This document shows positions 44,269 through 47,017 of a stretch of 64,000 bases of DNA, in pieces. A program made the position numbers and the translations under genes. Under the pieces are notes generated by a model. The model ran no database searches. It was not told the DNA's origin and saw only the letters and a list, made by a program, of their open reading frames with translations. The number at the start of each line of letters is the position of its first letter. The first letter of the stretch is position 1. Source of the stretch: Microbacteriaceae bacterium (GTDB lineage: Bacteria > Actinomycetota > Actinomycetes > Actinomycetales > Microbacteriaceae); NCBI GenBank assembly GCA_019639055.1, contig JAHBSP010000006.1, positions 62,001-126,000 on the forward strand. Direction: 5' to 3'.

Positions 44269-45486
44269 ATGACCAAAACACGCAAACGCCTACTGATATT
44301 TCTTGCAATAACTATCGCGGCGGTAAACATGCGATCGGTGGTGACCGCGGTCGCGCCAGTTTATGAACAAATCGATGCGGATATCCACCTCGGGACCCTA
44401 GAAATCGGATTGCTTGGCGCAGTGCCTGCAATATGTTTCGGACTCTTTGCGCTTCTGACCCCACTCTTTTGGCGTTGGCTCAGCCTAGAAGTTCTCTTGT
44501 TTATATCGATGCTGCTGATTGTCACAGGTAGCACGCTCAGGGCAATATCCGGGGCATATGTTTGGTTATTTCTCAGCAGCTTTATTGCGCTCGCGGCAAT
44601 TGGGGTCGCCAATGCGGCTATGCCACCTATAGTAAAAAAGTATTTCCCCGACAAGATTGGCGCAATGACCGCAATCTATGTTTCGTTGATGAACATAGTG
44701 TCATTCCTCCCGCCACTGCTAACTCCGTTTGTTGTACAGATTGGCGGTTGGAGACTTCAACTTGGAATGTGGGCGGTACCTGCGATTGCCGCAGCAACTC
44801 TCTGGTTTATCAAAATCGTTTCCTCCCAGCGAGATTTGGAACTCACAGGAGAGATTGAAATTCCAGAGGCGGCGGATGCGCGAAAAAAGTTCACTTACAA
44901 GCGGATCCTGAAAACTCGACTCGCTTGGGCGATGATTCTGCTCTTTGGTGTTCCGAGCGCATTCTTCTACGTGATCGCTGCCTGGTTGCCACAGCTTCTG
45001 GAATATTTTTCAGGCATCCCGATGTCGGAAAGTTCCTTCTACCTGTTCCTCTTGATGCTCACAGGCGTTCCAGGTTCGCTTGTCTTGCCGGTGTTGACCG
45101 TGAAGATGCGGAGTGTGTGGCCGATAATTATTGGTGCGTTTGTACTGCACTGGGTTGGTTATGCCGGTTTGGTGTTTATGGGGCACACAGTGCCGTGGCT
45201 GTGGGTGCTACTTATTGGGCTCGCGCCGTCTATCTTCCCGATGACCATGACCCTGATAAACCTGCGCACCAAGACTCGCGCCGGTGCACTCGCTCTTTCT
45301 AGCGCAACCCAAGGCTTTGGCTATGCGATTCCGATGATTTCATCCGTAGTGGTGGGCGTGCTCTTTGATCTCACTGGCACCTGGAATGCCCTCGTTTGGT
45401 TCATGCTTATAATTTCGTTCGGGATGCTCGCATCCGGGCTTTATGTGACTAAGCAGCGTTATCTAGAAGACGAGGTTGAGTTTTAG
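44269..45486 (+). CDS. MFS transporter, CynX/NimT-like
   Basis: A 405-residue protein with 12 predicted helices. The start phrase AAVNMRSVVTAVAPVYEQI is typical of the CynX/NimT subfamily of the major facilitator group, which moves cyanate, nitroimidazoles or other small anions or drugs. The substrate is unknown. It follows xth by three bases, likely cotranscribed. Its stop overlaps the end of a small remnant gene on the other strand. Confidence 0.83.
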   Translation: MTKTRKRLLIFLAITIAAVNMRSVVTAVAPVYEQIDADIHLGTLEIGLLGAVPAICFGLFALLTPLFWRWLSLEVLLFISMLLIVTGSTLRAISGAYVWLFLSSFIALAAIGVANAAMPPIVKKYFPDKIGAMTAIYVSLMNIVSFLPPLLTPFVVQIGGWRLQLGMWAVPAIAAATLWFIKIVSSQRDLELTGEIEIPEAADARKKFTYKRILKTRLAWAMILLFGVPSAFFYVIAAWLPQLLEYFSGIPMSESSFYLFLLMLTGVPGSLVLPVLTVKMRSVWPIIIGAFVLHWVGYAGLVFMGHTVPWLWVLLIGLAPSIFPMTMTLINLRTKTRAGALALSSATQGFGYAIPMISSVVVGVLFDLTGTWNALVWFMLIISFGMLASGLYVTKQRYLEDEVEF

Positions 45487-45656
45487 GGAAGAAGTTGTTT
45501 CGTCCAAGCGAAAAGGTCGACAATCGCCGGGGAATGTGCTTCGACGAGCGCTTCTTCCTCTCCCTCGCCTAGATGCCGATCCCGCGACCATCTTCCTGCA
45601 ACGGATGCTACGACCGCACCGATAGCGCGATCTGTCTGGAAGTTTGTCAGCGCCAT
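45483..45656 (-). pseudogene. ADP-ribosylglycohydrolase remnant A (57 codons)
   Basis: A 57-residue frame on the minus strand with a good AAAGGAG ribosome site six bases before ATG. Its start, LTNFQTDRAIGAVVASVAG, is like the N-terminus of an ADP-ribosylglycohydrolase, but it breaks off and jumps to ALVEAHSPAIVDLF near the C-terminus. A second copy at 46662-47013 has both these ends (14 of 19 and 10 of 13 residues identical). So this is probably a gene with a large internal deletion. A new short peptide with its own function is possible. Family call rests on the N-terminal motif. Confidence 0.55.
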
Positions 45657-45663
45657 AGGGTCT

Positions 45664-45706
45664 CCTTTGTTAGTGGGTACATTAGGGCAGTAACCACTAA
45701 CAAAGG
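45664..45706 (-). repeat. Perfect 13-bp inverted repeat over the ribosome site of remnant A
   Basis: Arms CCTTTGTTAGTGG and CCACTAACAAAGG (13 bp, perfect) are 17 bases apart. In the minus-strand mRNA the second arm includes AAAGG of the ribosome site, so folding would hide it. The same DNA could be an operator. Confidence 0.6.
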
Positions 45707-45722
45707 ATGGGGCTAGGTTACC

Positions 45723-46358
45723 TCAAACTAATACCCAGTTGGCAGGGTAACGATTGTCGAGCATCAAGTTATCTAATTTGGATTGACGATAACTTGCGGG
45801 GGTCATTCCTAATGCCACCAATTCTTTTGCTCTTTCAGCGCTTACGTACTTGACCAAGTTACCCGTTGTAAGGGTGCGTTGATCTACGACGGTATGACCA
45901 AATCTTTCACCTGTTTCAAAAGTTAGGATGTTATCGGACCAAGCAAGGGCATCACCAAGAGTGAATCCTGCCCATTCGCCAGATTCAATTACTTGGAATG
46001 AGTTTTGGTGTTTGTAATGATTCTCGAAATTGCTTGTTCTTTTTTCTAAAGCATTTCGGAACCTACTTGCAATCTCTTCCTGTTCTGAGATTCTTACTTC
46101 GCTAAGTGTGGCCGCAACCTCTTCAGAGGTGTAGATTTTTGGCTCGTCATCATTTTTGTTAATAAATGAAACTGCGACAAATTCTGTTAGCTTACTTTCA
46201 ACAGCGAAACTTAAATCGGGTACGTACTTACTTCCAAAATTTCTTTGAAAACTTCTAGCTTCTCTAATCTCGTGAAATATCGGTTTTTCGCAACCAATGT
46301 ACTCTTCGCTAAAGGTTCTCTTATGGGAAGTGTCTTTATTATCTTCGTTTTTACTCAT
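45723..46358 (-). CDS. Orphan protein, unknown function
   Basis: A 211-residue, mostly soluble, charged protein with no family I recognise. The N-terminus is polar and charged (MSKNEDNKDTSHKRTF). The middle contains FAVESKLTEFVAVSFINKN and the last part KYVSAERAKELVALGMTP. I place the start at ATG 46358, since a GAGAGGGGG site lies just before it; the longer reading to 46442 runs into hairpin-rich non-coding DNA. By eye its base use is more A+T-rich than its neighbours. It lies between two decayed ADP-ribosylglycohydrolase-like copies, suggesting a recent or mobile origin. Confidence 0.6.
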   Translation of the reverse strand: MSKNEDNKDTSHKRTFSEEYIGCEKPIFHEIREARSFQRNFGSKYVPDLSFAVESKLTEFVAVSFINKNDDEPKIYTSEEVAATLSEVRISEQEEIASRFRNALEKRTSNFENHYKHQNSFQVIESGEWAGFTLGDALAWSDNILTFETGERFGHTVVDQRTLTTGNLVKYVSAERAKELVALGMTPASYRQSKLDNLMLDNRYPANWVLV

Positions 46359-46364
46359 GGGTGT

Positions 46365-46391
46365 TACCCCCTCTCTGGGGGTATAGCCCCC
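46365..46391 (-). promoter_or_regulatory. Mutually exclusive hairpins over the orphan gene's ribosome site
   Basis: In the minus-strand mRNA the order is GGGGG, CUAUA, CCCCC, AGAGA, GGGGG, then UAACACCC and AUG. The CCCCC can pair either with the first G-run, freeing the ribosome site, or with the second G-run (stem UACCCCC with GGGGGUA, 46365-46383), hiding it. Such a pair is the minimum layout of a translational switch. Confidence 0.5.
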
Positions 46392-46553
46392 ATCGATCTT
46401 GCAACACGATTTTTCGTATTGCCCGTTCTTCCCCTGGGACACCCGGGAATCGATGGATTCGGGTTGTCGCGCGACCGGCCAGGTACCTTTAGGTCACGAC
46501 TCTTGAACGTAAAAAATATTTTAACACATAACACTGACATTGGCTTCTCGTGA

Positions 46554-46643
46554 GGTTTTGTTGAAGGTCTAGTTGGCGTCATCAATTTCGAGAGAATTAA
46601 GCAGGCAATAGGCGAAGAGTACTTCAAACAGGAGTTCATTTAA
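46554..46643 (+). pseudogene. Possible C-terminal gene fragment
   Basis: After an in-frame stop, 29 codons read GFVEGLVGVINFERIKQAIG and then EEYFKQEFI before TAA. The composition looks protein-like, but there is no start or ribosome site. I do not recognise the parent. Weak evidence. Confidence 0.2.
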
Positions 46644-46661
46644 TAGTAAAAAAGTTTTTGT

Positions 46662-47013
46662 TCAAGTGAATAAATCTATGATTGCCGGAGAATTAGCTTT
46701 GACAAGTTCGACGAGTCCTAGTCCTTGTGCGAGCAGCGCGGGCAAGCGAATTGTCGCAGGTGGCACGTTTTCTTCAGCACGAGCAAGAAATGGCCCGGTT
46801 GCTGGATCGATTAGGAAATGTTTGGATCAACGGAGAGTCCTAGGAGTTCGAGTACTGACGCAAACATGCTGGGTGAGGCCAGGCAAATTTCAGACATTGC
46901 CCTCACTGTGGTCTCTGCTCTTGGCCGAATGTATTCACGCCAAGTGCATCTCCTGCGGCTGTTGCCACAACTGCGCCAATTGCTCGGTCTATTTGAAAGC
47001 TTGATAATGTCGT
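46662..47013 (-). pseudogene. ADP-ribosylglycohydrolase pseudogene B
   Basis: The minus strand carries pieces of the same ancestor as remnant A. From ACG at 47013 (where ATG is expected) it reads LSSFQIDRAIGAVVATAAG then DALGVNTFGQ, and soon meets a stop. Further pieces lie in shifted frames. The end reads LARAEENVPPATIRLPALLA and, further on, LVKANSPAIIDLFT before a stop. The D-R-A-I-G...G-D-A-L-G start is the family hallmark. The start codon is lost, stops and frame breaks are present and most of the usual 250-300 residues are missing. The plus-strand frames over this region (from 46666) are shadows. Confidence 0.6.
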
Positions 47014-47017
47014 AGTG

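Follow-up and report, generated by a model that had tools for sequence, protein, structure and literature searches.

The SAM-IV riboswitch (RF00634) has a known target in sulfur metabolism: in Mycobacterium avium it precedes the gene for O-acetylhomoserine sulfhydrylase (PMC3774663). Its structure has been described (PMC6890682), and surveys are available (PMC3766115, PMC2864571). Here we analyze a stretch of 64,000 nucleotides from a Microbacteriaceae bacterium (contig JAHBSP010000006.1, positions 62,001 to 126,000; hereafter the window), in which a SAM-IV riboswitch and the gene behind it lie between two gene remnants. As in the described class, the aptamer is full length, scores above the cut-off, possesses the pseudoknot between the P3 loop and the 3' tail and stands directly before a start codon; the difference lies in the target, which is a protein family without annotation instead of a sulfur metabolism gene. 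Read along the minus strand in its 5' to 3' direction, the locus consists of remnant B (47016-46647), the SAM-IV riboswitch (46508-46390), a gene for a 211-residue protein (46358-45723) and remnant A (45656-45486). We consider it quite likely that two old chimeras of ADP-ribosylglycohydrolase and lipase genes decayed here, within a small accessory locus, around a single gene that was kept and is the target of the riboswitch. Gene decay at such a locus is ordinary in itself, and it is the pairing of the riboswitch with the protein that is unexpected.

The SAM-IV riboswitch and the protein family behind it

The central part of the locus consists of the following features:
46390..46508, minus strand: SAM-IV riboswitch aptamer (RF00634), full length, 65.2 bits
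46341..46389, minus strand: expression platform and start codon, containing a hairpin in which GAGGGGG, the ribosome-binding site, is paired to a C run that precedes it
45723..46358, minus strand: intact gene for a 211-residue protein of an uncharacterized Microbacteriaceae family (family profile, protein search)

The riboswitch is absent from the first-pass annotation of this locus. In the Rfam scan it covers model positions 1-116 of 116, with a score of 65.2 bits against a curated cut-off of 38, and ends 31 nucleotides before the ATG; it is the sole SAM-IV riboswitch of its genome. The pseudoknot of the window aptamer is formed by CCAUCGA of the P3 loop and UCGAUGG of the tail. Covariation of the two strands is seen across sites: at least seven pairs can form in 47 of 68, compared to a mean of 22 and a maximum of 29 with swapped tails (68 of the 72 sites introduced below were counted, the P3 pattern being missing in the other four). 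Furthermore, a 24-base segment of P3 of the window aptamer is exactly preserved in most riboswitches that accompany the family of the window gene, whereas the virus contigs contain no exact match to it.

In each of the 14 leaders that were read, a G run is followed by a C run and then by a ribosome-binding site rich in G; the C run can pair with either of the other two, so that the sequences of two mutually exclusive hairpins are present. In the predicted fold of the window leader, the ribosome-binding site is inside a hairpin (z-score -3.0), and the same holds for two of the three relatives that were folded.

The riboswitch was detected in 69 of the 398 analyzed genomes of the bacterial family of the host. 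From 75 listed matches, two at contig ends (G327 and G328) and one below the cut-off (G261:C6:42999) were dropped, leaving 72 sites including that of the window. The downstream gene was taken to be the longest frame starting within 130 nucleotides or, otherwise, within 330 nucleotides, a rule under which some singletons may be wrong frames. Comparison of the 72 proteins with phmmer at an E value of 1e-5 yields groups of 27, 14, 4, 4, 4 and 2 proteins, along with 17 singletons, and the window gene belongs to the group of 14. Thus, two possibly related families follow 41 of the 72 sites and five families follow 53. Single linkage at 1e-3 unites 45 proteins that are split into groups of 27, 14 and 4 at 1e-5, and comparison of the profiles of the two main families (hhalign, 72%, E value of 3e-5 over 76 columns) is suggestive of a distant relationship that these families may share. 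Ten proteins representing the five larger groups were scanned: none matched a Pfam family above the cut-off or any NCBIfam family, and only weak PHROG matches were obtained. One further SAM-IV-linked family, of approximately 135 residues (L085, L104, L107, L108), shows a conserved PGHN-HWIH-like motif; the member that was scanned matched no Pfam family above the cut-off.

The family of the window gene was also identified independently of the riboswitch. A protein search of 59 genomes recovered, besides the 211-residue protein itself, a single homologue, in a genome judged to be Gulosibacter macacae (G020; pairwise E value of 2.1e-8). A SAM-IV riboswitch (62 bits) was then seen upstream of this gene, which makes it a non-circular test of the pairing, because the homologue had been found by protein alone. 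With a family profile (A1), the protein was found in 17 of the 398 family genomes, in 15 of them directly behind SAM-IV; the window protein matches this profile with an E value of 7.9e-53, being one of its 12 rows. In a collection of named species, the same profile detected 13 loci, all in Microbacteriaceae (Gulosibacter, Leucobacter, Frigoribacterium, Agrococcus and metagenome-assembled genomes, including one named Cryobacterium and one named Homoserinimonas), with SAM-IV directly upstream in 13 of 13, a result that is partly circular because most profile rows were picked as neighbors of SAM-IV. For that reason, the other large family (profile A6) provides the cleaner test: a search of 119 genomes of the order recovered its genes in five, which all belong to one other family, and each of the five has SAM-IV upstream (79-84 bits). 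The first-pass annotation took the gene for an orphan between two decayed related copies; the decay of two such copies on either side of a gene of foreign appearance is borne out, but the gene has homologues, by protein search as well as by profile.

Within this family, the RNA is far more conserved than the protein, with mean pairwise identities of 87% and 42%, respectively (78 pairs), and identity between the window locus and its relatives is 85-91% for the RNA and 22-30% for the protein. When two collections were scanned with the window protein alone, no relative emerged; some were recovered later, with the profile built from relatives. The 211-residue protein has no match to Pfam above the cut-off, to NCBIfam or, up to an E value of 10, to the PADLOC defense models; PHROG matches were weak (best E value 0.012), and a sequence search of the PDB returned only sub-threshold matches to ribosomal protein L28. 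No description of such a protein family behind SAM-IV in Microbacteriaceae was found in the accessible parts of the literature searched. In one bacterial family, a known riboswitch class sits mainly before unannotated, quickly changing proteins.

We infer S-adenosylmethionine (SAM) to be the ligand and, from the layout of the leader and the general behavior of SAM-IV, the switch to be an off-switch, with the gene probably silenced by SAM and activated by its loss. When SAM is plentiful, the aptamer would be bound and the 3' tail held in the pseudoknot with the P3 loop; with the tail so held, the downstream C run would pair with the ribosome-binding site and the gene would be off. When SAM falls, the G run of the tail would pair with the C run, leaving the ribosome-binding site free, and the protein would be made. 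Under this scheme, the 211-residue protein is most likely an accessory protein needed only when SAM is scarce, rather than an enzyme of methionine biosynthesis. Given that the inducer of these uncharacterized genes can be guessed, the whole set becomes testable at once.

Several observations weigh against this interpretation. Two weak, partial members of the family (G197 and G362) have no SAM-IV match, and a second family copy in G134 (L146), which is cut off upstream, is preceded by a group II intron instead of the riboswitch. Among the three relatives folded, one leader (L121) has a best fold without the sequestering hairpin (z-score -0.6). The structure models are of middling quality (predicted local distance difference test, pLDDT, of 71.7 for the window protein and 78.5 for that of G. 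macacae) and mostly helical; neither Foldseek nor VIA-align detected a trusted structural relative for either model, the best Z (5.9) covering 67 residues in a helical region. Finally, the intact neighbors in the window are ordinary genes (a phosphoribosyltransferase, a member of an exo/endonuclease family, an MFS transporter and Hsp20).

The two remnants around the gene

The remnants comprise the following blocks:
45486..45656, minus strand: remnant A, an open frame of 57 codons
45594-45656, minus strand: N block of remnant A, derived from ADP-ribosylglycohydrolase
45489-45548, minus strand: C block of remnant A, derived from a secretory-lipase-type hydrolase
46939..47016, minus strand: ADP-ribosylglycohydrolase N block of remnant B, with no ATG at the expected start
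46817..46948, minus strand: lipase-type block 1 of remnant B, about 55-56% identity over 43-44 residues
46722..46817, minus strand: lipase-type block 2 of remnant B, 59% over 32 residues, in a different frame
46647..46709, minus strand: lipase-type C block of remnant B (LVKANSPAIIDLF..TK), interrupted by a stop

The first-pass annotation placed two degraded copies of one ADP-ribosylglycohydrolase-like gene here. Their positions and the N and C blocks that they have in common hold up, with protein scores beyond all shuffles: 68 for the N blocks, where the best of 500 shuffles attains 47, and 60 for the C blocks, where the best of 1000 attains 40. At the DNA level, the similarity is marginal (1 of 500 shuffles attains the observed score), and the similarity of remnant B is scattered over three frames. 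Within its own genome, remnant A matches only A and B.

The assignment to a single family applies to one end of each copy. The N block corresponds to the start of the ADP-ribosylglycohydrolases (PF03747), given that in the local search it is 68% identical over 28 residues to a protein of G052 that is a full member of this family (E value of 4e-6), and 75% identical over 20 residues to a protein of G212; the connection to NAD (nicotinamide adenine dinucleotide) and ADP-ribose proposed earlier is thereby retained for this block. The C block of both remnants (SPAI-DLF) and the two further blocks that make up most of remnant B match instead the C-terminal half of a secretory lipase (PF03583, LIP), with E values of 2e-10 for block 1 and 1e-6 for block 2 in a small local database; the lipase-type match of remnant B was also recovered in the own-genome search (E value of 9.6e-9). 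A single duplicated ADP-ribosylglycohydrolase gene is therefore rejected as the source. Both resemblances are limited: of the ADP-ribosylglycohydrolase, the remnants keep only some 25 residues and are recognizable through the N block only, and, compared to the lipase, they are interrupted by stops, by shifts of frame and by deletions. In the genome itself (1.42 Mb, 17 contigs), there is no PF03747 profile match above the cut-off and no intact homologue of the lipase-type hydrolase. By sequence comparison, each remnant is a chimera in which the beginning of an ADP-ribosylglycohydrolase gene is fused to the end of a lipase-type gene. The same join is present twice, for which the simplest guess would be an ancestral pair of neighboring genes that was duplicated before the decay.

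The two N blocks differ in 14 of 21 third codon positions and in 4 of 21 first and 4 of 21 second positions, which implies that A and B diverged under protein constraint before they decayed. As judged from these alignments, the split of the two copies long predates their decay; a recent tandem duplication does not agree with such heavy divergence at silent sites.

Alternative explanations of the gene and its surroundings

One alternative is that the protein serves the homeostasis of SAM and methionine, either raising SAM or saving it, in the role of a small regulator or of an aid to transport, which we regard as a tentative possibility. One small genome (G126; L103, L051) carries two SAM-IV sites with targets nearer to the classical ones, which we take to be a metK-like frame at one site and a flavin oxidoreductase-like frame at the other. 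The control of O-acetylhomoserine sulfhydrylase by SAM-IV in M. avium (PMC3774663) fits this explanation as well. A core metabolic helper would not, however, usually drift so far in sequence, be so patchily distributed or lie in accessory neighborhoods. If the proteins did serve the economy of SAM, they would reveal missing parts of the pathway in Actinobacteria.

That the riboswitch and the gene entered between the remnants as a recently inserted mobile cassette appears unlikely. The G+C content is lower across the gene (0.38-0.42) than in the window (0.49), and the aptamers are far more alike than the proteins that accompany them, both of which speak for a cassette; yet low G+C equally fits weak constraint, no integrase frame was seen beside the gene, and no copy was found in the viruses and plasmids searched. 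Moreover, SAM-IV and ADP-ribosylglycohydrolase genes are already neighbors in relatives. Both are present in 20 genomes, on the same contig in 13 and on different contigs in 7, and in 11 of the 13 they are separated by at most about 33 kb, with distances as short as 125 bases (G407) and 2.4 kb (G349). The combined p value of this linkage is about 1e-4 (3e-4 for long contigs only), in a test that uses 13 of the 20 genomes and treats them as independent although two genera appear twice. In view of this linkage, the remnants more probably represent an old neighborhood at this site than something brought in.

An origin of the gene from a phage or plasmid was considered separately and rejected, both searches being empty.

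Other features of these surroundings can be noted. The ADP-ribosylglycohydrolase genes near SAM-IV often adjoin a recurring conserved protein (four genomes; L165, L167, L171, L175) and a NUDIX-like frame, presumably parts of an ADP-ribose/NAD operon. In two relatives, tRNA genes, a usual place for integrated elements, adjoin the SAM-IV gene (L118, 4657-4728; L120, 5627-5698). In the window, a convergent MFS transporter gene and the Hsp20 gene flank the locus, one on each side; the best match of the transporter is 40% identical, among compared genomes in which none of the same genus was seen.

Phages with T3-type SAM lyases destroy SAM and thereby blunt restriction, so that the riboswitch could act as an alarm of SAM depletion, with the protein as a defense effector released when a phage destroys SAM. 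We consider this rather unlikely. In its favor, the protein diverges rapidly under a nearly constant sensor, its presence is patchy (the 17 of 398 genomes given above), and the anti-restriction role of phage SAM-degrading enzymes is on record (PMC7877911; phage SAM lyases are also treated in PMC6106888). At 4 of 12 loci, defense proteins are encoded no more than about 5 kb away from the gene, namely AbiEi, AbiEii and a PifA-like protein in G020, the type I restriction protein HsdR in G196, and DUF262/SspE-like proteins in G176 and G228; in G232, a Vsr endonuclease adjoins a gene of the related family. Among the 113 neighbors at the 12 SAM-IV loci (129 frames minus 16 that are the SAM-IV gene itself, overlapping or antisense), 82 PADLOC models were matched, compared to 34 among 111 proteins of 12 distant control regions, but the models counted overlap and their number is not that of the proteins matched, and the controls matched some models too, which were not checked one by one. 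Against the alarm stand five of ten neighbors that had no match when scanned singly, the failure of the 211-residue protein itself to match PADLOC, the empty searches of phages and plasmids, and the intact neighbors in the window, which are not defense genes. A described analog would be phage-triggered abortive infection of the AbiE type; the likeness consists of the one relative of the gene near AbiEi/AbiEii in G020, whereas the protein has no sequence relation to these systems and a riboswitch trigger would be a different principle. The defense neighborhood is accordingly a lead, not proof.

In a broader form of the alarm, which strikes us as quite unlikely, SAM-IV would have been recruited from sulfur metabolism, in Microbacteriaceae and one other family of the order, to guard a large, fast-evolving superfamily of conflict proteins, with a fall in SAM, for example when a phage SAM lyase disarms restriction, releasing the effector. 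If true, this would be an immune response triggered by a riboswitch, with an RNA metabolite sensor as the infection alarm.

Finally, it is extremely unlikely that remnant A, despite its open frame with an ATG and a plausible ribosome-binding site, is a working or conserved gene of 57 residues, given that among the matches listed from the 398 family genomes there is no convincing full-length homologue besides itself, and its halves match two unrelated proteins, the matches being to the N-termini of ADP-ribosylglycohydrolases, the C-termini of lipase-type hydrolases and many weak, scattered places.

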